Positions 28,017-53,694 of a stretch of DNA of 64,000 nt are shown here, one piece after another. The stretch lies in the NCBI GenBank assembly GCA_944323655.1, contig CALUTL010000005.1, forward strand, positions 1 to 64,000. The letters are read 5' to 3'. A model generated the notes under the pieces. That model was not told the DNA's origin, did no database searches, and saw nothing but the letters and a program-made list of their open reading frames with translations. The first letter of the stretch is position 1; the number at the start of each line of letters is the position of its first letter. Made by a program: the position numbers and the translations under genes. This DNA comes from Candidatus Gastranaerophilales bacterium. Lineage in GTDB: Bacteria > Cyanobacteriota > Vampirovibrionia > Gastranaerophilales > Gastranaerophilaceae.

Positions 28017-28688
28017 ATGAAAAACAGAAGATTTATAATATTAGGAATATTAATAGTTGCATTGTCAATTATAGGTAAATTGCTATGGTCTGCGATGTCA
28101 AATGTAAAGATAGATGACTTCAAACCGGCAGCAGTAATTTTTCTGGTAGACTCATCAGCTTCAAACCAGAAAGCGCTGGCAGATCAAAAACAAACCTTAA
28201 AACAAATTTGTAATCTTTTAGATCCGGAGGATCAGGTAAAAATATTAAGAGTGTCTGAAGATGCTTATTTAATATATGAAGGAACCCCGTTTAACGGATC
28301 CGGAATAACAAAAGCCTTAGATGCATTTACGGCTTATGACAGCAAGGATTACGGAACAGCTTACGGATTAGCGATTAAAAAAGGGGTTAACCATGCTTTA
28401 ACAATGCAAAAAGAAGGTTACATTCCCGGAATTGTAATTCTTGGTGATTTAGAAAATGAAGGCGCAATAGAAAAGCAAATTAATTGGGATTTGCTGCCTA
28501 AAAACATAGAGAATGCAAAACAATATATGCCTGAGCTTGCAATGATGTTTTTATATGCACATCCGGAAAAGCTTGATCAGGTAAAAGAAAAACTTGCACC
28601 TGTTCTCGGAGAGAAAAAGCTTATAGTTTCTCCGGAACAAAACACTGACAAGGCAATTCGACAATTTATCCACGCACTTGGCAGATAA
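28017..28688 (+). CDS. membrane-anchored vWA-like domain protein
   Basis: A 223-residue protein with an N-terminal signal anchor (FIILGILIVALSIIGKLLW) and a periplasmic domain resembling a von Willebrand factor A fold. A D-S-S-A-S sequence (IFLVDSSASNQ) fits the D-x-S-x-S MIDAS metal site, G-T-A-Y may give the Thr ligand, and VILGDLENEG the later Asp. vWA domains mediate metal-dependent protein contacts. GAGAGAG precedes the ATG. It is first in a same-strand cluster with an FHA-like membrane protein and TonB-C-like proteins, suggesting a joint envelope complex. The vWA call rests on motif spacing by eye. Confidence 0.7.
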   Translation: MKNRRFIILGILIVALSIIGKLLWSAMSNVKIDDFKPAAVIFLVDSSASNQKALADQKQTLKQICNLLDPEDQVKILRVSEDAYLIYEGTPFNGSGITKALDAFTAYDSKDYGTAYGLAIKKGVNHALTMQKEGYIPGIVILGDLENEGAIEKQINWDLLPKNIENAKQYMPELAMMFLYAHPEKLDQVKEKLAPVLGEKKLIVSPEQNTDKAIRQFIHALGR

Positions 28689-28720
28689 ACTTAGGGAACT
28701 TAATAAATAAGGGGAATTTT

Positions 28721-30331
28721 ATGACAATAGTTGTATCATCTTCAAAACTCGAGAAAGTGTTTGATGAAAAAGATGTAATTAATATAGGTACAAATCCGAA
28801 TTGTGATTTTCATCTTGATTTGGATTTTGATGTACTTTTAACATTACAATATGACAAAGATGAAAACAAATGTGTGTTAATGAATACATTTCATAATGAA
28901 AGAGTTTTATTTAAAGGCAAACCGATAAAAAAAGTAGAAATCGGCAACATTTGTAAAATTATGTTTGCAGACAGCCCTGAATTTATAAATATTAAAATAA
29001 TTGAAAATGTACCGATTAAAAAGACAATAACAGCAATTGAAAGAGAAGAATTATCCGAAGAAGATATGAGAACTCTTTACGGCAATGATCAAAATGCTTT
29101 AATGAGAGCAAAGCTTGAAAAACAAAAAGCAGATATTGAATCAGCAAGAGTTTCAATAATCAAACAAGTTGCATTTCAAATAAATGATTTGAAAAACAAA
29201 ATCGGCTCAAACACCCGCACAAATGTTTTTCTTCACTTTGCAATGGCAATCAGCTCAATTTTATGTGCATTTGGGCTTGCAAATTACCTTATGGGCTTGT
29301 CAATAAAAGAATCTTCAAATTATCTTCATATGCCGACAAACATAAAAGTATGGGTTGCATATTCAATTTTGGTATTCGGCGCAGCCATAATGCTAAAACA
29401 AGGGATATACTTATTCTTGCAAAGTTCCAATGACAAAAATGTATCAGGAACAGCAAGATTTGCACAAGGATTTATGGTTGTACTGTCTTTATTGTTTATG
29501 CTCGGAATTTATGTCGTAAACCTTGTTTATTATATGAATTTAAATGATTTTGTAACATTTGCAATATTTGTATCACTGTTTTTCTCCGGATTGTTAACAG
29601 CTTTATCAATCGGGTGCGGATATTTTAAACACACCTCAGGAGAGTGGGCAATGACACTTAACAAGTATGAATACAGAGAAGATTTTGAAGCGGTTTTAAA
29701 ATCTTACAGACAATGGATAGAAAGATTTATAAACAGTTTTTCAAACACAAAAATCAATAACATAAAAGAAAGAATTTTTACTCTTCAATTAAGATCAGCC
29801 GGAGAGATGTTACTTGGGGTATTAACTGCGCCATTTCTGGCTTATGGGGTATCAAATACTCTTGCAATGTGCTTTCCGGAAGCGGCAGGATGGATAAGAA
29901 TATCAGGCTTAAGATTTTCACCTGTATTTCTTGTATTAGCGTCATTTATGATTATATTTGCATTTTTCGCTTTTGCGGGAGCCTTTACAACGACCAAGAA
30001 AATTCAGGCTTCACAAGTAATTAAGCAAGACGGTTACAGCGATTACAGACAGCACGGTGTTAGTATTTTCGGTTTAGAGGGTACAAGAAGATTAGAAACA
30101 GAAAAATTACGTCTTCTATACATCGGATGCGCAATAATCTTTATCGAATTCACAATGAATGTTTCGTATTTTGCAACGGAAATCGGCGGGGATTTGATAG
30201 GGCTTGTAAAGAGCTTTCTGGCAGCACTTGTTCCGACAGCAATCCTAATCGCAGAAACATTTATGTTAGCAAATACGATGTTCGATATTTACACCTGCGA
30301 CGAAGTAATTGCAAGACGTGATAAAGATTAG
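28721..30331 (+). CDS. polytopic membrane protein with N-terminal FHA-like domain
   Basis: A 536-residue protein. Residues 1-105 look like a forkhead-associated fold: beta-rich, with I-G-T-N-P-N-C-D-F-H-L near the start (FHA: G-R-x-x-x-C-D-I) and a later FHNERVLFKGKPI (FHA: NGTxVNGxxI). The phosphothreonine-binding Arg of GR is Thr here, so phosphopeptide binding is doubtful. A charged helix (about 115-160) leads to about eight transmembrane segments, two before a soluble loop (YEYREDFEAVLKSYRQWIERF) and several after. I know no such full-length family. GGGGA precedes the ATG, 32 bases after the vWA gene. Confidence 0.68.
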   Translation: MTIVVSSSKLEKVFDEKDVINIGTNPNCDFHLDLDFDVLLTLQYDKDENKCVLMNTFHNERVLFKGKPIKKVEIGNICKIMFADSPEFINIKIIENVPIKKTITAIEREELSEEDMRTLYGNDQNALMRAKLEKQKADIESARVSIIKQVAFQINDLKNKIGSNTRTNVFLHFAMAISSILCAFGLANYLMGLSIKESSNYLHMPTNIKVWVAYSILVFGAAIMLKQGIYLFLQSSNDKNVSGTARFAQGFMVVLSLLFMLGIYVVNLVYYMNLNDFVTFAIFVSLFFSGLLTALSIGCGYFKHTSGEWAMTLNKYEYREDFEAVLKSYRQWIERFINSFSNTKINNIKERIFTLQLRSAGEMLLGVLTAPFLAYGVSNTLAMCFPEAAGWIRISGLRFSPVFLVLASFMIIFAFFAFAGAFTTTKKIQASQVIKQDGYSDYRQHGVSIFGLEGTRRLETEKLRLLYIGCAIIFIEFTMNVSYFATEIGGDLIGLVKSFLAALVPTAILIAETFMLANTMFDIYTCDEVIARRDKD

Positions 30332-30340
30332 AAATAAAAA

Positions 30341-31288
30341 ATGAAGCGTTTAAAGGGATTTATAATATTTCTTTATATATTTTTGACAATGCTTGTGCTT
30401 ATTATACAACCTGCAATGCACAAGCCTGTTGCTATTGAAAACGTAAATTTCAAAATTAAAGAGCAGCTAATGCATCCAAAAACCAAAAAAGTCTCTGACT
30501 TTATGGTAAGCATAAAATTTTACAGGGCACAAAAAACCGTAGTTCAAAAACCTGACACTTCAATTCATATAAAACCTGAGGATGATGATAAGAGAATATC
30601 TTTTGATTTAACCGGCAATACAGGCAGCCGAGAGACTTCAATATCATTTGAAGACAATGTCGAAAACTCCTCTAAAGATATAAATATTGATCTTTCAAGA
30701 CAGAATGACCTATATAGCGAACGTTACTCGGATTTTGGAGATAAAAACACCAGCTACAGCGAAAGTGAATTCAGCTTTGGCAACAGCAATGAAAGATATC
30801 TTGAACAGGAAATCGGATTTGAAAATCAGGAGAATATAAATCAAAAAAATCTGGAATTATCAGAAAACGATATTCCGACAACAGATGTAGAATTAAAATT
30901 AAAAGATGAAATCGGAAGCTGGCGTTTCAAAGGCTCAAAAGAAGAAATTGTTGCTTGGAACGTATGGAGAAGTAATTTACAAAACAGAATAATGGATGAA
31001 TCAGGAATTGAAGCGCCTGTCGGAACATTAATATTATTTTCTTTTGACGTATCAAACACCGGACACATAACTAATTTAAGGTATACTTGTTCAAATAAAG
31101 AATATGCAACAGACGCAAGAGCAGATATGGTAAGGATTTTAAGAAAACTGGAAGGGAATCCCATATTAAACTTCCCGCCAAACACAAAAAGGACGGGAGT
31201 AAAGTTTAAAGGCGGATTTTTACTTGATTACACAACACAATATTCAACACCGGAAGATTATTCGGATTATGAAAGGATTAGGCTATAA
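30341..31288 (+). CDS. TonB-like periplasmic protein with acidic low-complexity linker
   Basis: A 315-residue protein: one N-terminal membrane helix (FIIFLYIFLTMLVLIIQPAM), a polar linker of Ser/Asp/Glu/Asn (about 80-185), then a C-terminal domain resembling TonB_C. WNVWRSNLQNRIMDE leads to GTLILFSFDVSNTGHITNLRYTCSNKEYATDARADMVRILR, the usual 'V-x-F-x-I-x-x-x-G-x-V-x-x-x-x-V' strand-turn pattern. It starts 9 bases after the FHA-like gene. The linker is acidic rather than the Pro/Lys-rich one of classical TonB. Function is inferred as spanning the periplasm. Confidence 0.65.
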   Translation: MKRLKGFIIFLYIFLTMLVLIIQPAMHKPVAIENVNFKIKEQLMHPKTKKVSDFMVSIKFYRAQKTVVQKPDTSIHIKPEDDDKRISFDLTGNTGSRETSISFEDNVENSSKDINIDLSRQNDLYSERYSDFGDKNTSYSESEFSFGNSNERYLEQEIGFENQENINQKNLELSENDIPTTDVELKLKDEIGSWRFKGSKEEIVAWNVWRSNLQNRIMDESGIEAPVGTLILFSFDVSNTGHITNLRYTCSNKEYATDARADMVRILRKLEGNPILNFPPNTKRTGVKFKGGFLLDYTTQYSTPEDYSDYERIRL

Positions 31289-31431
31289 TGGACAGAAAAA
31301 CATTTTTAATTATTGCTATAATAGTATTTATTATTGCAATGTTTGCGTCAACATTTGCTATTACAGGAATGAAACCTCAGCTTCATAAATCATTTCTTCT
31401 TGAAATAATAAATGTGAAAATTAAAAAATAA
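31288..31431 (+). CDS. 47-residue single-span membrane peptide
   Basis: The ATG shares its first base with the previous stop (TAATG). The peptide has a charged start (MDRKTF), one strong hydrophobic helix (about residues 7-25, LIIAIIVFIIAMFASTF) and a polar tail ending VKIKK. Tight overlap with the TonB-like gene argues it is translated. It could be a subunit or stabiliser of the cluster's membrane complex; no family is recognised. Confidence 0.55.
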   Translation: MDRKTFLIIAIIVFIIAMFASTFAITGMKPQLHKSFLLEIINVKIKK

Positions 31432-31452
31432 TATGTTATAATAAATACAGTT

Positions 31453-32109
31453 ATGTATGTTTGTAAAGATTGCAAAAAAACTTTCAAAGAAAAAGTAGAA
31501 TACTGTGACTGTGGCAATAACGTATTTGAAGAAGTTGCAGATCCGGCACCGCCGGCAGAACCGATAAACGAATCAAAAGAAGAATTACCTATTGCACCTC
31601 ACCCGATTTTACCGGCTCGTTTATTGTCAGTTTCAATATTTATTTTATGCTGCACATTTTCATTATGTTTTATCTTATTTTTTGGGCCGGAGTCAAAAAA
31701 GAAAGAAGCTGCACCTATTACCAATCAAAAAACGGTTGTTAAAGATATTCCAAACATAGACAGTTTCTGGGATGACACCCCCGCTTACGGAATGCAGCCT
31801 GATTACAATGCAGATATTAATACTTATAAAAACGGATTAAAAAATGCGTTGCTCGCTCAACTTGACACAAGTACTATTGAAGGTTCTGGCTCATGCGATA
31901 TTCAGTTTACAATTGATAAGCACGGTAATTTAAAAAAGAAAAAACTTTACCAAAATACAGCTAATAAACCTTTAATAAATGAGACAAAAAAAATGCTTTC
32001 TTCTGTCAAAAGATACAACCCTCCTCCAAAAAGCTATGACGGAAGCCCTTTAACATTAGAAGTTCTGGAAAACACAGACGGAACTTACACTCTTGTATAT
32101 AAAGAATAA
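31453..32109 (+). CDS. zinc-ribbon, membrane-spanning, TonB-C-like protein
   Basis: A 218-residue protein with a cytoplasmic four-Cys zinc ribbon (YVCKDCKKTF and YCDCGNN), a Pro/Glu segment, a transmembrane helix (LLSVSIFILCCTFSLCFILFFG) and a periplasmic C-terminal domain with TonB_C-like strands (SGSCDIQFTIDKHGNLKKKKLYQN, then LTLEVLEN). It lies in line with the vWA/FHA/TonB-like genes, but a TATAAT at 31437-31442 ten bases before the ATG, with no Shine-Dalgarno, hints at its own leaderless message. A zinc ribbon joined to a TonB-type end is unusual. It converges on the LysM-lysozyme gene, with 3 bases between the stops. Confidence 0.65.
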   Translation: MYVCKDCKKTFKEKVEYCDCGNNVFEEVADPAPPAEPINESKEELPIAPHPILPARLLSVSIFILCCTFSLCFILFFGPESKKKEAAPITNQKTVVKDIPNIDSFWDDTPAYGMQPDYNADINTYKNGLKNALLAQLDTSTIEGSGSCDIQFTIDKHGNLKKKKLYQNTANKPLINETKKMLSSVKRYNPPPKSYDGSPLTLEVLENTDGTYTLVYKE

Positions 32110-32112
32110 AAT

Positions 32113-34155
32113 TTAAACCTTTATTTTTATAAATCCTTTGTCTATGTAATTACCCAGAAATTTTTTGGTATAAGCGTTGTAATCCACACGATTATTTTTA
32201 TTTTCTATACTTGCAAAACCTCTGTTATATATATTTTGAATTTTTGTCATTACCTGCTGAAGCTCTTTAGATGAAAGATTAGAGCCTTCAACAAATAAAG
32301 CAATTTCAGAGAATCTTCTTTTGATAAGCCCCGGCATAACTTGTTTTTTACCGTTTACAGTTCCTGATACCTGATCAAACTGTTGGGCTGCAAGTGCATA
32401 ATTGCCGTCTTTTATGGCTTTTATAAGCTTTGGACAGGAATTAAGCCCGCCTGTATTGAATATCAGAGAATATAAAGCTTCTTTTTGTTTTTGAGAAAGT
32501 TTGTTAAAATCCTCTTTTAAATGTTTTTTTACAACATTTTGCGCTTCAATAATATCTCTTGCAAGAAGACTATACATTTCGGTATCCGAAATAGATATGC
32601 CTTTATATTTTTTGATATCTTTATGAGCTTTTGTGTTATGCCCTATGCCGATTGTCAAAAATCCGCAACCGTCATCATAAAGTGTTCTGCTTTTTTTCTC
32701 AAGAGATATTAAATTGTCTATAAATTCACGGCTAACTCCGGTAACTTGCATTACGGCCTCAGGATTTCCGGCAATTTTTATATTTGTTATTTTCTGCTTT
32801 GCAAGAAGAAGTGTAAGGGATTTGCCCTGCAAATTATTGTATGCAACGATATCCTTAACATCAACTCCGTATTCTTTGGCTATTGACGTCAATGTATCTT
32901 TCGGTTTTACATGGTGCGTAACAACTCCCATTGATGACGATATTACACCTTTATCATCTTTTTCTGAACTTTTTTGTTCATTTGTAATTTTTTGAACTGT
33001 CTTTTTAACTTTCGGTAAGCTTTTATTCTTGGCATTTGCAATTCTTAGGGCCTTTATTTCATCTGTTGTCGGAATCTCTAAAACTTGACCTAATGAAAGC
33101 TTATTCGGATTTTTGATATTATTCTTCGCAATAACAGCCCAAACCGGAACTCCGTATTTTGATGCTATTGCTGATAAATTATCATCTTTTGTTATTTTTA
33201 CACTCTTATTTTCCGATTTTTCAGATGTTTTTCGCCCTTGCTCAAGTTCCATAATATCTTCTGCTGACGGAATTTCTAAAACCTGATCCTTGTTCAATTT
33301 TTTGAGATCTTTTATATCATTTACAAGCATTAAAGCCCATACTGGAACTTCTTTTTCTTTTGCTATTCGATATAAAGTATCGCCGGTTTGAACCGTATAA
33401 GTCTCCGTCGTATCTGATATATATTCATCTTTTTCTACAGATATCCCTTCTAGTTCAAGATTTGCCTCTGCTTTTTTTGGAACATTTATTATAATTCCGT
33501 TTTTTATGCTTTTTAAACCCGGATTAAGCTCCCTAAGCATTTTAACGGTAATATCATGCTCTTTTGCAATTTTATCCAATGTATCACCTGATTTAACCCT
33601 ATATCCGGGAACTTTGATTACCGCACCAACTTTTAGCGAATCAAAATTTATATCAGGATTAAGTTTTTTAAGCTCCTCTTCATACAAATTGAATTTTGAC
33701 ATAATTGAAAAAGCTCCTTTACCTTTTTCAATAGTCCATTTTCCCCAAGTTTGGCTATCAGCCTCTTTTTGAGGTGAAACTGTTTCGGTAAAGATATTTT
33801 CGGGAAGTTTAAGCAAATCTCCTTCGTGAATTATTTTGTTACCGTTTTTGTCGTTTTTTAACTGTTTATTCGCATCTATAAGTTCCGAAACACTTATCCC
33901 ATAATCATTTGCAATCTTGTACAAGGTTTCGCCTTTGCTAATCAAATGAAAGCCTTCCTTAACTGAAGAACTTTCCGTATTTGAAACTTCAGTATCTGAA
34001 GCGGAATTTATGCTTTGTTGAGCTGTCGAAGCCTTATTTTTTGGTTTTTCTGGTGTTTTAGACTCCTTGCTTTTTTCCGCAGTATCTTTCGGGACAAAAA
34101 GCTCCATAAATAATCCCGACATTAAAAGCTGACTTGTTGAAATTATGTTTGACAT
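32113..34155 (-). CDS. six-LysM protein with T4-type lysozyme (GH24) domain
   Basis: A 680-residue putative muramidase. Six LysM peptidoglycan-binding repeats occupy about residues 70-475, each of the form V-K-x-G-D-T-L-x-x-I-A...N...L-x-x-G-x-x-L-x-I-P, separated by Lys/Ser-rich linkers. Residues about 485-640 are GH24: LEKKSRTLYDDGCGFLTIGIGH keeps Glu, Asp and Thr at the T4 lysozyme spacing (E, +9 D, +15 T), followed by QKEALYSLIFNTG and the RRFSEIALF region. There is no classical signal peptide (MSNIISTSQLLMSGLFMELF), so export is unclear. It is monocistronic, not next to holin or phage genes. It could act in cell-wall remodelling, attack on other cells, or secretion. Confidence 0.9.
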   Translation of the reverse strand: MSNIISTSQLLMSGLFMELFVPKDTAEKSKESKTPEKPKNKASTAQQSINSASDTEVSNTESSSVKEGFHLISKGETLYKIANDYGISVSELIDANKQLKNDKNGNKIIHEGDLLKLPENIFTETVSPQKEADSQTWGKWTIEKGKGAFSIMSKFNLYEEELKKLNPDINFDSLKVGAVIKVPGYRVKSGDTLDKIAKEHDITVKMLRELNPGLKSIKNGIIINVPKKAEANLELEGISVEKDEYISDTTETYTVQTGDTLYRIAKEKEVPVWALMLVNDIKDLKKLNKDQVLEIPSAEDIMELEQGRKTSEKSENKSVKITKDDNLSAIASKYGVPVWAVIAKNNIKNPNKLSLGQVLEIPTTDEIKALRIANAKNKSLPKVKKTVQKITNEQKSSEKDDKGVISSSMGVVTHHVKPKDTLTSIAKEYGVDVKDIVAYNNLQGKSLTLLLAKQKITNIKIAGNPEAVMQVTGVSREFIDNLISLEKKSRTLYDDGCGFLTIGIGHNTKAHKDIKKYKGISISDTEMYSLLARDIIEAQNVVKKHLKEDFNKLSQKQKEALYSLIFNTGGLNSCPKLIKAIKDGNYALAAQQFDQVSGTVNGKKQVMPGLIKRRFSEIALFVEGSNLSSKELQQVMTKIQNIYNRGFASIENKNNRVDYNAYTKKFLGNYIDKGFIKIKV

Positions 34156-49343: not shown

Positions 49344-49940
49344 ATGAAAAGAGCTTTATTGAGTATGTTAATATTAGGCAGTTTATGCGGGATACAAGCT
49401 TATTGCGCCGCTCCGCTTGAGAACATACAGCTTGATTTGAGAGAGCAGGATCCGGTAGTTTTGAATGCAGGAACTTTTATTCCGGTAATCAGTGCGCAGG
49501 AAATTTCAACACAATATAATTCAGAAGGCTATAAGGTAAAATTTATTGCGACAACTGATTTATTTATGTATGACACCAAAATAGTTCCCGAGAACACGCT
49601 TTTTGATGGTTACATAGAGAAAATGAACGAACCCGTAATCGGCACAAATGCTTCAATGATTATCCGAATAGCTAAAATGATATTACCCGACGGATATGAA
49701 CTTCCGATGAAGGGATATATTTACACTTCCAATAACAATCTTATAGGCGGAGGGGTTTCGGAACCGGAGAACTGGATTAGAATGCCTCATTATCAGCAAA
49801 GACTAAAAGGTACGGCAACCCTTCAAATCAAACCCGGAGAAAGAAGGAAAATGGGCGAACATACAACGCTTCCCTCAGGTCTTGATTTGCTTATAATCCT
49901 TACCGAACCGCTTGAAATCACACACGTTTTAACAAATTGA
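49344..49940 (+). CDS. exported beta-domain protein A (distant TrbI/VirB10-like pattern)
   Basis: A 198-residue secreted protein with a signal peptide (MKRALLSMLILGSLCGIQAYCA). The mature part is beta-rich: a 'NAGTFIPVISAQEIS' start, an 'IVPENTLFDGYIEKM' turn, the 'ILPDGYELPMKGYIYT' segment and 'LPSGLDLLIILTEPLEI' at the end. The same order of elements occurs in the next gene, and it resembles the C-terminal barrel of VirB10/TrbI proteins (PxGxxIxxxL ... LIPxGSxxxGxxxxx ... PDGxxxxL), but there is no other secretion-system gene. The function is unknown. The start is probably leaderless. It lies upstream of a TonB system. Confidence 0.68.
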   Translation: MKRALLSMLILGSLCGIQAYCAAPLENIQLDLREQDPVVLNAGTFIPVISAQEISTQYNSEGYKVKFIATTDLFMYDTKIVPENTLFDGYIEKMNEPVIGTNASMIIRIAKMILPDGYELPMKGYIYTSNNNLIGGGVSEPENWIRMPHYQQRLKGTATLQIKPGERRKMGEHTTLPSGLDLLIILTEPLEITHVLTN

Positions 49941-50023: not shown

Positions 50024-50812
50024 ATGAAAGCAAAAATAAGTTTACTATTGGCAGCGGTCTTATTTGGAGCGAATGTAACCATAGCTGCAAGCAATTTTAC
50101 TTATACTGAACAAACTCCTGCATACCAGCAGCAATACAATCCGGCACCTCAATTCGGCTCGCAAACAAACAACTTTCAAAGACAAAATTATAATAACAAT
50201 CAAATAAATACAAACACTACCCTAAAAGGTCATATCGTAACGGTTCCGGCAGGTCAAAACATTCCTGTAATTACAACAATGGCACTAAGTTCGGAAAATC
50301 TTGCTTTAGGGCAAAACGTAACTGTCGCATTGAACTCCGATTTTTATTATAACGGAAGCCTGATAGCACCTGCGGGAAGCTCTATTACCGGTCAAGTTTT
50401 AGAAGTTTCAAAAGCCAAAAGAGGCAGTATGAACGGTAAGCTTATGGTAAGATTTACCCAAATTACGACTCCATACGGAACTCAAATTCCGATTTCAGCT
50501 GTAATAAAGACAGATGACGGAACAGGAGTTTTAGTCGGCGGCACAAAACTTGATGTTGCAAAGGATTACGGCAAAGATCTTGCGATAGGTTCAGCAGCCG
50601 GTGCAACGGCAGGGCTTGTTATGAGTGCTATATCAGGAGGAAGTGTCGGTAAAGGAACAGCACTTGGAACAGCAGTAGGCGCAGGCGGCGGGCTTGTTAA
50701 ATCAATTTGGGACAAAGGAGACAACGTAGAAATCCCTGCCAATGCCGGAATTTCGCTGACACTTACCCAGGCTATTACGGTAAATCCCGCAATATATAAT
50801 ACTAATTATTAG
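50024..50812 (+). CDS. exported beta-domain protein B with glycine-rich segment
   Basis: A 262-residue secreted protein. A signal peptide (LLLAAVLFGANVTIAA) is followed by a Gln/Asn/Tyr-rich stretch (about 25-65), then a beta domain with the same element order as the preceding gene: VPAGQNIPVITTMALSS, GSLIAPAGSSITGQVLEV, TTPYGTQIPISAVIKT and IPANAGISLTLTQAITV. A Gly-Ala-rich hydrophobic stretch (about 185-225, AIGSAAGATAGLVMSAISGG) resembles a glycine zipper inserted in the domain. I know no function; an outer-membrane or periplasmic structural role is an inference from context next to TonB-ExbBD. Confidence 0.7.
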   Translation: MKAKISLLLAAVLFGANVTIAASNFTYTEQTPAYQQQYNPAPQFGSQTNNFQRQNYNNNQINTNTTLKGHIVTVPAGQNIPVITTMALSSENLALGQNVTVALNSDFYYNGSLIAPAGSSITGQVLEVSKAKRGSMNGKLMVRFTQITTPYGTQIPISAVIKTDDGTGVLVGGTKLDVAKDYGKDLAIGSAAGATAGLVMSAISGGSVGKGTALGTAVGAGGGLVKSIWDKGDNVEIPANAGISLTLTQAITVNPAIYNTNY

Positions 50813-50903: not shown

Positions 50904-52139
50904 ATGTCAATCATAGGAAAATATACCGTTGATAGAGATGAGGAGAATCAGGAGAATATCGGCTTTACACTTCCTACAACGGCAAAAAAGAGTAAAGAGG
51001 ATAATCTGAAGAGGGATATTGTTATTTCAACAATCCTTCACCCCACAGTAGTCGGGTTAATTTACCTTATTTCATTCATTCTTTTATTACTCGGGATAAA
51101 ATTAAGTATTTTTGACAGACCGAAACCCAAAATGAAGGATATAGAATTTGTACTTGTAGAGAAGGAGGGGACTCCGATAAACAAGAACACGCCATATCGT
51201 TCAGACATAAATTCACGAGCAGGCGGGCATCACGATCCGACAAAACCTGTCTCAGTACCATCACCGGCACCGGCAGCTTCACCGAAACCATCACCGGCAC
51301 CACAACCGCCTGCAAAAGTGCAGCAGCCAGCGCCACAAAAAACGCAAACACAACCCAAACCCCAACCGCAACCTGTTAAGAAACCGACTATAACAGAACA
51401 AATTCAACAGGCAGTTCAGCCAAAACCTGAACAACCAAAGGTAAATCAGCAGCCTCCTGCACCAACAAAGGCACCGGAAGTTGCAAAACCGGCACCTCCA
51501 ACTGCTAAACCATCAATAAAACCGCCTTTAACACCAAAACCTGTTGCAAAACCAAGCAGTGCATTCCAAGTTCCGGTACCGTCAGGCGGAACAAAAACAG
51601 GTACTTACGCAACAGGCCCGATAAGCGGTTCGGGAACTTCAAATAAAGGCGGCGGTTCAGGCGGCCCTGTAAGCGGCAGCGGAAGCGGAAGTTACACCCC
51701 AGCACCCTCTTTAGCGCCAACAGGCGGCGGTAGTTCTTCGGGACAAAAGCTTGCCAGAGGCGGCGGCGGCGGAACAGGCGGTGTAGGTAATCCCGGCCCC
51801 GGAAATCCTAACGGCGCTCCGGGAATTGATACAATAAGAGAACCCGACTTCGGCCCTTATATGAGAGAACTCCAGAGAAGAATTAAAATGAACTGGGATC
51901 CCCCAAAAGGTAACGAAAGTAAAAGAGTTGTATTATTGTTTAAAATTGCAAAAGATGGAAGACTTCTTTCTTGCAGCGTATACAAATCTTCAGGACTAAA
52001 AAGCGCTGACGATGCGGCTTTAAACGCAGTAAAACTCACAGCACCGTTTAAACCGCTTCCGGCAGAATACAAAGGCGCAAGCATTGATATTCAATTCACG
52101 TTTGACTACAACGTATTTGGCGCCGCAGGGTACCAATAA
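50904..52139 (+). CDS. TonB/TolA-type energy transducer
   Basis: A 411-residue periplasm-spanning protein. A ~40-residue cytoplasmic start leads to a transmembrane helix (TVVGLIYLISFILLLLGIKL), a Pro/Lys/Gln-rich rod (about 105-220), a Gly/Ser-rich linker (about 225-305) and a TonB/TolA C-terminal domain (YMRELQRRIKMNWDPP, VVLLFKIAKDGRLLSCSVYKSSGLKSADDAALNAVK, IDIQFTFDYN). YMxxLQxxIKxxWxPP is a common opening of TonB_C in non-proteobacterial and TolA-like proteins. It is driven by the ExbB/ExbD genes that follow. TATAAT at 50842-50847 probably belongs to its promoter. Confidence 0.9.
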   Translation: MSIIGKYTVDRDEENQENIGFTLPTTAKKSKEDNLKRDIVISTILHPTVVGLIYLISFILLLLGIKLSIFDRPKPKMKDIEFVLVEKEGTPINKNTPYRSDINSRAGGHHDPTKPVSVPSPAPAASPKPSPAPQPPAKVQQPAPQKTQTQPKPQPQPVKKPTITEQIQQAVQPKPEQPKVNQQPPAPTKAPEVAKPAPPTAKPSIKPPLTPKPVAKPSSAFQVPVPSGGTKTGTYATGPISGSGTSNKGGGSGGPVSGSGSGSYTPAPSLAPTGGGSSSGQKLARGGGGGTGGVGNPGPGNPNGAPGIDTIREPDFGPYMRELQRRIKMNWDPPKGNESKRVVLLFKIAKDGRLLSCSVYKSSGLKSADDAALNAVKLTAPFKPLPAEYKGASIDIQFTFDYNVFGAAGYQ

Positions 52140-52188
52140 AAAACAATAAAGATTAGAAGGAAAAACATAAAAGGAGAGGATAACAAAA

Positions 52189-52833
52189 ATGGAATTACTA
52201 TTACACTCAATTCAACTTGACTGGCCGGTGCTTTTACCGATATTGGTTTGTTCAATACTGGTTGTAGCGGTTGTATTCAACAGATTTCAGTTTTACAAAG
52301 AAAACAAAAGAGATGTTGTTTTATTCATCCCAAAACTTCAAAGAGAACTTGCGAAAAACAATCTTCAAGGCGCTCAAAGCATCGCTGAAAATTGCGGCGG
52401 CGTAATCGGAGAAGTTACAGAAGAAGCAGTCAGAATTTTTTCTGAACAAAAGAACGGTTTTTCAAGATCATTTGATATTGCAGCGGCGCTTGCAACAAGA
52501 AAACTTGAAAGCCACCTTACCATTCTGGGTACAATCGGAGGTGTTGCACCGTTTTTAGGGTTGTTCGGAACTGTCGTCAGAATTCTTTATACATTCCAGG
52601 ATCTTGCAACTCAAGGTAATCAATCAGCAGCAGTTGCAATGGGTATAGGATCAGCCCTGATTGCTACGGCCTTCGGTCTTGGAGTTGCTATTGTTGCAGT
52701 TGTTTTCTACAACTCGTTCCAATCAATAGTTAAACGCTATGAAGACGATTTTCAGCTTATTAAGTTGTTATTCTTAAGCTTTGTAGATTCAGAAGAAGAA
52801 TCTAACAAAACAACATCAAATGTTTCATTGTAA
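52189..52833 (+). CDS. exbB: ExbB/TolQ-family proton channel subunit
   Basis: A 214-residue inner-membrane motor protein with three helices: LLPILVCSILVVAVVFNRF, then the ESHLTILGTIGGVAPFLGLFGTVVRIL segment, then SALIATAFGLGVAIVAVVFYN. The TM2/TM3 sequences GTIGxxAPxLGLxGTV and G-x-x-x-AL-x-ATAxGL are the family signature. It forms a pentamer around ExbD and uses the proton gradient to energise TonB. AGGAGAGG precedes the ATG, 49 bases after the TonB gene. Confidence 0.94.
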   Translation: MELLLHSIQLDWPVLLPILVCSILVVAVVFNRFQFYKENKRDVVLFIPKLQRELAKNNLQGAQSIAENCGGVIGEVTEEAVRIFSEQKNGFSRSFDIAAALATRKLESHLTILGTIGGVAPFLGLFGTVVRILYTFQDLATQGNQSAAVAMGIGSALIATAFGLGVAIVAVVFYNSFQSIVKRYEDDFQLIKLLFLSFVDSEEESNKTTSNVSL

Positions 52834-52850
52834 ACAAAAGGAAAGTTCAA

Positions 52851-53303
52851 ATGGCATTCAGTTCAAACAAAAAAGAAAAACTTTTTACGGAAATCAACAT
52901 AACACCTTTAACGGACATTTTTCTTGTACTGTTAATCATAATGATGGTTGTAGCACCGACATTTCAGTCAATGGACAATGCGATAACAGTACCTGAGATT
53001 AACAGCGGGGTTGCGATTGAGCAGAAAAATGCAACTATCGCCATCACAAGAGACGGTCAAATGTTCTTAAACGGAACTCCGATAACAGAAGAACAATTAA
53101 CCGATGAGCTTGTGGCTTTAAAAGAATCCATAGAGAAGCCCGAAGTTGTAGTGAAGGCCGATGAGAAAGTAAAAAGTGCCGAGATTATGAAAGTTATGAA
53201 TGCTGCACAAGACGCAGAATACAAAAAACTTATCGTAGCCGGCGAACCTTTGAGTAAGAAAGAACAAAAAGAGCTGAAAGAAGAAAATAAACAAGGAGTC
53301 TAA
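52851..53303 (+). CDS. exbD: ExbD-family protein 1
   Basis: A 150-residue inner-membrane protein with the ExbD signature INITPLTDIFLVLLIIMMV, whose Asp is the proton-carrying residue, then a periplasmic domain with TVPEI...ITRDGQMFLNGTPI...VVKADEKVKSAEIMKVMNAAQDA. The C-terminal Lys/Glu tail (LSKKEQKELKEENKQGV) is longer than usual. It is followed after one base by a second ExbD. Confidence 0.94.
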   Translation: MAFSSNKKEKLFTEINITPLTDIFLVLLIIMMVVAPTFQSMDNAITVPEINSGVAIEQKNATIAITRDGQMFLNGTPITEEQLTDELVALKESIEKPEVVVKADEKVKSAEIMKVMNAAQDAEYKKLIVAGEPLSKKEQKELKEENKQGV

Positions 53304-53304
53304 A

Positions 53305-53694
53305 ATGAGCCGTAACCGCGGAGAATTTAACGAAATTAACATAACACCTTTAACAGATATTTTTCTTGTACTGTTAATTATAATGATGGTAATAGCACCG
53401 CTTCTTGACCAGCAAGGGCTTAACCTGACGGTACCGGAAAATGTAGCGGAAGAACAGGTTAAACAGGACACGAAAATTTTGACGGTCAATGTAACTTCTG
53501 AAGATAAATATTACATTGAAGGCCAAGAAATTCCCGCCAACGAACTTGAAAATTATATTAAGCAAAATGCAGCAAATTTTCCTGACGGCATGATGATAGA
53601 ATCCGATGGTGAAGCAACTCACGGAGCTGTCGTAAAACTTATGGACAGCGCAAGAAACTCCGGAATTACAAGCATTTCCGTTTCTCAAGTGTAA
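53305..53694 (+). CDS. exbD: ExbD-family protein 2
   Basis: A 129-residue paralogue of the preceding gene: identical INITPLTDIFLVLLIIMMV membrane helix with the key Asp, then TVPENVAEEQ, a shorter periplasmic domain (DKYYIEGQEIPANELENYI; MMIESDGEATHGAVVKLMDSARNSG). The membrane segments are nearly identical in DNA and the periplasmic parts have diverged, so ExbD heterodimers are plausible. The transcript ends at the hairpin at 53713-53744. Confidence 0.94.
   Translation: MSRNRGEFNEINITPLTDIFLVLLIIMMVIAPLLDQQGLNLTVPENVAEEQVKQDTKILTVNVTSEDKYYIEGQEIPANELENYIKQNAANFPDGMMIESDGEATHGAVVKLMDSARNSGITSISVSQV

Follow-up and report, generated by a model that had tools for sequence, protein, structure and literature searches.

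A conserved gene set of Candidatus Gastranaerophilales encoding vWA, FHA-type and TonB-type proteins, a candidate trans-envelope complex

Five consecutive genes at 28017-32109 in a 64,000-nucleotide stretch of DNA from a Candidatus Gastranaerophilales bacterium, a non-photosynthetic gut cyanobacterium (contig CALUTL010000005.1, positions 1 to 64,000, referred to as the window) encode a vWA protein, a polytopic membrane protein with an FHA-type head, a TonB-type protein (TonB-1), a 47-residue peptide and a zinc-ribbon TonB-type protein. A preliminary description of the window knew of no system with this set, and none with the same genes turned up in searches of Pfam, NCBIfam, PADLOC and the literature. 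The set is real, conserved and undescribed in these sources. Sequences and structural models suggest that it is a variant of the TonB/Tol/Glt-type trans-envelope machines, and its function is a prediction.

By analogy, the nearest described logic appears to be that of the Glt system of Myxococcus; the present set may work like Glt but would not be a member. Glt forms a multi-protein trans-envelope complex powered by an ExbB/TolQ-type motor (AglRQS), and its component GltJ has an N-terminal zinc ribbon. The C-terminus of GltJ is TonB-like (PMC8262864), and GltG combines a cytosolic FHA domain with a periplasmic TonB_C domain and binds the AglR motor (PMC3169522). FHA-bearing and TonB-ended membrane proteins are thus common to both systems. 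Whereas GltG is a single bitopic protein that bears both FHA and TonB_C, here the FHA fold sits on a protein with about eight transmembrane (TM) helices and the TonB ends sit on other proteins. Furthermore, the operon has no AglRQS genes, no TPR gene (GltC, GltD, GltE) was identified among its conserved neighbours, and the set adds a vWA protein and a TrbI-like partner encoded by a sixth gene of the wider operon.

The TonB-ExbB-ExbD and TolA-TolQ-TolR systems share with the set single-TM anchors, long disordered linkers and TonB/TolA-fold C-terminal domains. They differ in that no TonB-dependent receptor was detected in the genome and no dedicated ExbB or ExbD is encoded in the operon, while a polytopic FHA protein, a vWA protein and an anchor-only peptide are extra. 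Any likeness to VirB10/TrbI of type IV secretion would lie in the sixth gene, with its putative TrbI-type domain, glycine zipper and envelope-spanning logic. In contrast to VirB10/TrbI, its product has no visible inner-membrane anchor, just a signal-peptide-like start, and the gene is absent from the operon in the window. Type IV secretion ATPases (VirB4/VirB11) were not recognised among the conserved neighbours of polytopic loci, no genome-wide search having been made. SjdR of Anabaena, a TonB-like septal protein, has a role other than uptake and is partly GltJ/AgmX-like (PMC8262864). Compared by description, the likeness is that of a cyanobacterial TonB-like protein not serving uptake, but according to its authors SjdR lacks a TonB-like periplasmic domain (PMC8262864).

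Conservation, distribution and duplication of the operon

Five open reading frames on the + strand fill the span in the order vWA, polytopic, TonB-1, peptide and zinc-ribbon protein (Table 1). The intergenic gaps are 32, 9, -1 and 21 bp, and the start codon of the peptide overlaps the final base of the TonB-1 TAA stop. Given this tight spacing of co-directional genes, the five are read as one operon; strand, coordinates and short gaps are as first described. All five genes, the peptide included, gave ratios of nonsynonymous to synonymous substitution (dN/dS) well below 1 against same-genus orthologues wherever dS could be estimated. For the peptide, an example comparison gave dN 0.14 with dS 1.19-1.83, which indicates purifying selection. 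The reading frames are therefore not chance frames, and the five-gene observation is confirmed as real. The source genome comprises 1.95 Mb in 33 contigs and is 99.9% complete, and its named relatives are Candidatus Gastranaerophilales records.

Table 1. Coordinates of the operon and of related features in the window
Feature	Position	Strand	Basis
vWA protein, 223 aa	28017..28688	+	Pfam; MIDAS; linkage to polytopic gene
Polytopic FHA-type protein of 536 aa, with FHA-fold head, coiled coil and about 8 TM helices	28721..30331	+	AF2 model
FHA-fold head, residues 1-94, without phosphothreonine-binding Arg	28721..29002	+	Foldseek; alignment
TonB-type protein 1 (TonB-1), 315 aa	30341..31288	+	AF2, Foldseek, linker composition
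TonB/TolA-fold C-terminal domain of TonB-1, residues 194-315	30920..31285	+	AF2, Foldseek
47-residue one-span peptide	31288..31431	+	hhalign, genome search, selection
Zinc-ribbon TonB-type protein, 218 aa	31453..32109	+	invariant Cys, Pfam
TonB_C region of zinc-ribbon protein, residues 119-218	31807..32106	+	Pfam at residues 125-202
Distant TrbI-like secreted protein upstream of TonB-ExbBD, a related class of partner outside the operon	49344..49940	+	weak similarity
TrbI/VirB10-like glycine-zipper protein (262 aa) directly upstream of TonB-ExbBD	50024..50812	+	hhalign
TonB (50904), ExbB, two ExbD genes	50904..53694	+	Pfam; genome search PF01618

Gene linkage was counted at the 80 best-matching named polytopic loci, some of which end at contig ends. 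In 79 of them the vWA gene immediately precedes the polytopic gene, and TonB-1 is linked on the other side in 79 as well. Linkage is also seen for the zinc-ribbon gene (66/80), the peptide (about 62/80) and the TrbI-like gene (42/80). Of 286 genomes of the order, 193 contain the polytopic gene and 169 TonB-1; both are present in 168, the polytopic gene alone in 25, TonB-1 alone in one (marginal) and neither in 92. The Fisher value for this co-occurrence, 3e-50, is not a fair probability, since the genomes are related and not independent. Co-occurrence in relatives, proposed earlier as a check on the set, is thus borne out by both the loci and the genomes.

In a phylum-wide sample of 386 genomes, the polytopic matches listed all belong to one family. 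A weak match in another family (G043) is to an unrelated, different protein with no operon around it. A further match, in G051 of family f6, is likely to reflect contamination or transfer: the genome is 66% complete, and in the tree the match falls within f1. A second copy of the operon occurs on another contig of the same genome (L038:8585-13600) and comprises TrbI-like, polytopic, TonB-1 and zinc-ribbon TonB genes. In the tree the two copies fall in separate clades that both include further genera; the duplication therefore predates the genus. Judging from these comparisons, the set is a conserved operon, inherited as such and duplicated, in one bacterial family.

Predicted architecture of the encoded proteins

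The AlphaFold2 (AF2) model of the polytopic protein (predicted local distance difference test score, pLDDT, 80.6; predicted template modelling score 0.56) begins with an all-beta head (94 residues) and includes a long helix spanning 126-191 together with about eight TM helices. When the head was compared with PDB structures by Foldseek, FHA domains ranked at the top, with Rv1747 first (probability 1.00, TM-score 0.75 by target, E 0.0032), so the proposed eight-helix protein with an FHA-like head agrees with model and search. The FHA Pfam model PF00498 had zero matches in the whole genome. The head shares the fold of the FHA domains of Mycobacterium tuberculosis Rv1747 and of GarA but differs in the canonical phosphothreonine-binding arginine after the first glycine, the position of which is occupied by T, S or N in 66 of 66 aligned rows. 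Phosphothreonine reading by the head is therefore unlikely, as had been suspected from the window protein.

For the TM part, Foldseek gave no convincing structural match in the PDB, and a PDB sequence search with the polytopic profile returned chance matches only. The protein belongs to no Pfam, NCBIfam or PADLOC family, no transporter family was recognised, and comparison with PF01618 (MotA/TolQ/ExbB) showed no homology. From these searches it appears to be a family without a named relative, found in one bacterial family only. Its predicted TM helices contain invariant polar and ionisable residues, including H172, K226, E476 and E512, and the TM5-TM6 block is highly conserved.

TonB-1 consists of an N-terminal TM anchor with a conserved P-x-x-H motif, a disordered linker and a TonB/TolA-fold C-terminus. 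The AF2 model of the C-terminal domain is alpha-beta-beta-alpha-beta, with pLDDT about 91-97 over most of its length. Foldseek matched it in the PDB to FusB (probability 0.97) and Helicobacter pylori TonB (0.98), and at lower probability to HasB and TolA. Pfam searches with TonB-1 homologues gave noise only, and an hhalign comparison with the TonB end of the zinc-ribbon protein (probability 11) was too weak to use, so that the fold assignment of TonB-1 rests on structure prediction. The acidic linker noted earlier is present in the window protein (31 D/E vs 20 K/R) but is not a general property, since the paralogue in the same genome has a T/K/Q-rich linker.

The 47-residue peptide was first seen as a tiny one-span protein sharing a base with the preceding stop. 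It is real but not unrelated to its neighbour: it aligns with the N-terminal anchor of TonB-1 (hhalign probability 97.4, E 1.5e-11), and a profile search of the whole genome found only the peptide itself and that anchor (E 4e-6). By these results the peptide is a free-standing TonB anchor that lacks an arm. Matches to Pfam herpes US9 and NCBIfam CbiN were dismissed as single-TM noise. In some relatives, a short protein related to the peptide is encoded upstream of the TrbI-like gene.

The zinc-ribbon protein has an invariant CxxC-x10-CxC motif on the cytoplasmic side, followed by a TM segment (about residues 57-75), a linker and a TonB_C end. Its homologues match the Pfam families TonB_2 in 31/31 and TonB_C in 28/31 cases, and by profile the end of the protein matches the C-terminal domain of H. 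pylori TonB with E 0.037. For the AgmX/PglI C-terminal tail (NF033768), used as a marker of the Glt machinery, the protein was the best match in the genome, yet at E 0.04 and 14.8 bits against a cut-off of 40. In the vWA protein, an N-terminal TM segment (residues 6-24) precedes a vWA domain recognised by Pfam (VWA_2 1e-6, VWA 1.2e-6). Its metal ion-dependent adhesion site (MIDAS) is intact (D45xS47xS49, T114, D144), its residues being conserved in all but at most one of 29 homologues. The positive-inside rule predicts that the domain is periplasmic. With these matches, the vWA, FHA and TonB_C folds of the preliminary description are all recovered, as are the membrane anchor of the first protein and the periplasmic TonB-type end of the last.

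Two secreted vWA proteins with a DYSGSM MIDAS are encoded divergently beside the paralogous operon (L038:6699-8515, contig C4), and homologues of them also adjoin the operons of L057, L058, L062, L063 and L064.

The TrbI-like family and the TonB-ExbBD operon

The five genes belong together, but as a set they are incomplete. In many relatives, and also at the second copy, a sixth gene precedes the others (before the vWA gene in the relatives), with a signal-peptide-like start and glycine zippers in its product. Its homologues match TrbI (PF03743) in 16 of 22 cases, the best at 1.8e-6, and the member shown scores under the curated threshold. The ancestral operon had this secreted TrbI/VirB10-like protein as the product of a sixth gene, which was lost from the 28-kb locus in the window and kept at the paralogous locus. 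A PADLOC search for defence systems left the five genes unmatched and gave one chance match, on the sixth gene.

The same family occurs elsewhere in the window. The product of 50024-50812 belongs to it (hhalign probability 99.9, E 1.3e-31), and that of 49344-49940 is weakly similar both to this 262-residue neighbour (E about 1e-6) and to the family profile. The gene at 50024 has a homologue in 59 of 59 relatives, and a TonB gene is adjacent in 27 of the 30 loci examined. TrbI-like proteins thus accompany TonB-like proteins in two different, unlinked operon types. The set had been described as separate from the TonB-ExbBD operon, but the two are not simply apart: the TrbI-like family stands directly upstream of the TonB operon, which also encodes the one ExbB detected in the genome. 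A PF01618 search detected this ExbB as the only MotA/ExbB-family protein in the genome, so energisation of the 28-kb set by it is possible, and we regard it as a candidate motor.

The Plug domain of TonB-dependent receptors gave zero matches in the genome, while controls were detected. It was found in 25 of the 286 genomes of the order, and in 18 of the 193 with the polytopic gene. The Plug genes are scattered, and they are commoner in genomes with the polytopic gene but no detectable TonB-1 (12/25) than in those with both (6/168), an enrichment that is possibly lineage-driven, coming mainly from one genus.

Predicted function and alternative explanations

The reading that we favour, at about even confidence and from sequences and models, is a trans-envelope complex, specific to this lineage, that operates in the manner of TonB, TolA and Glt. 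By analogy with those systems, the set probably transmits force or signals outward from the inner membrane to the outer one, and its operation may be energised or signal-gated, as the preliminary description had proposed. The polytopic protein would act as a hub in the inner membrane, with the TonB-type anchors assembling around it. TonB-1 and the anchor peptide could share one site on this hub, the peptide adjusting how many anchors carry an arm and how many lack one. The FHA head might dock a cytoplasmic partner without reading phosphothreonine. Both TonB-fold arms would cross the periplasm and act on a TrbI-like outer-membrane component instead of on TonB-dependent receptors, and the vWA domain could serve as a metal-dependent periplasmic adhesion or clamping module. 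The energy source would be either the one ExbB-ExbD motor (52-53.7 kb) or the polytopic protein. Such a complex would most likely transmit force or signals in the assembly of the outer membrane or surface. A bolder version, which we consider distinctly unlikely, makes the eight-TM FHA-headed protein an ion-driven engine of a new class with no relation to ExbB/TolQ/MotA; it would drive two TonB arms against a TrbI/VirB10-like outer-membrane component replacing TonB-dependent receptors.

Several observations weigh against the complex as proposed. The Foldseek E-values are weak, both for the FHA head (0.003) and for the TonB-1 domain (0.01 and up). The TrbI-like Pfam matches are modest, the outer-membrane location of these proteins is deduced from a signal-peptide-like start and a glycine zipper, and the 28-kb locus itself has no TrbI-like gene. 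In 25 genomes the polytopic gene occurs without detectable TonB-1. Finally, plsY also neighbours the polytopic gene in 62 of the 80 loci, so that plain synteny explains part of the linkage. That the genes are merely syntenic and form no functional unit would also fit vertical inheritance within one family, but we find it improbable: most of the set recurs at the paralogous locus in a different genomic context, to which the synteny explanation does not extend, the peptide shares homology with the anchor of its neighbour, and gene loss is concerted.

A static scaffold or stress sensor that links inner membrane, cell wall and outer membrane with no energy input would account for the operon having no dedicated motor gene and for the zinc ribbon and the FHA-type head both facing the cytoplasm. 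There is a cyanobacterial precedent in SjdR, a TonB-like, partly GltJ-like protein that structures septa and peptidoglycan (PMC8262864). On the other hand, the genome does hold an ExbB-ExbD motor, and the polytopic protein has invariant E, H and K residues within its predicted TM helices, which suggests a role beyond scaffolding; we judge a scaffold to be unlikely, though the most serious of the alternatives. The same in-membrane charges, with the conserved TM5-TM6 block and the TrbI/VirB10-like sixth gene with its glycine zipper, would suit an exporter resembling the core of a type IV secretion system, in which the polytopic protein is the inner-membrane transporter or channel, the TrbI-like protein the outer-membrane pore and the TonB arms the gate. 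However, the conserved neighbours include no recognised ATPase, lipoprotein or pilin gene, and the polytopic protein falls in no recognised transporter family, which makes this exporter distinctly unlikely. That the set is an accessory TonB system and serves the TonB-dependent import of iron, B12 or glycans is very improbable. Two TonB-fold ends on TM-anchored proteins and the presence of ExbBD would fit it, but no receptor gene was recognised among the conserved neighbours, and the uptake reading was rejected on the Plug counts for the genome and the order.

If the trans-envelope reading is correct, it would widen the known targets of TonB-type arms and add a receptor-independent TonB branch within the cyanobacterial phylum. 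The set is of interest as an undescribed, conserved and duplicated envelope set of a major gut bacterial group, and because its TonB-type proteins occur in genomes nearly all of which have no TonB-dependent receptors. The TrbI/VirB10-like proteins that adjoin TonB-like genes in both operon families are offered as candidate partners.

Other TonB_C-like proteins were seen outside these operons. Three tandem secreted proteins with TonB_C-like ends have no TM anchor besides a signal-peptide-like start (L039:4483-6640, contig C30). Shortly downstream of a FliR-like gene, outside the window, lies the gene of a 1083-residue protein (L191:2890-6141, contig C5) whose N-terminal region is very long and acidic and which has one TM segment and a TonB_C end, and a secreted TonB_C-like protein lies between site-specific recombinase and restriction/methylase-like genes (L040:6088-6717, contig C20). 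In the window, the gene at 32113-34155 on the - strand is convergent with the operon, 4 bp from its end; its autolysin-like product carries a phage-type lysozyme domain and six LysM repeats, and the gene was not seen among the conserved neighbours of the polytopic loci.

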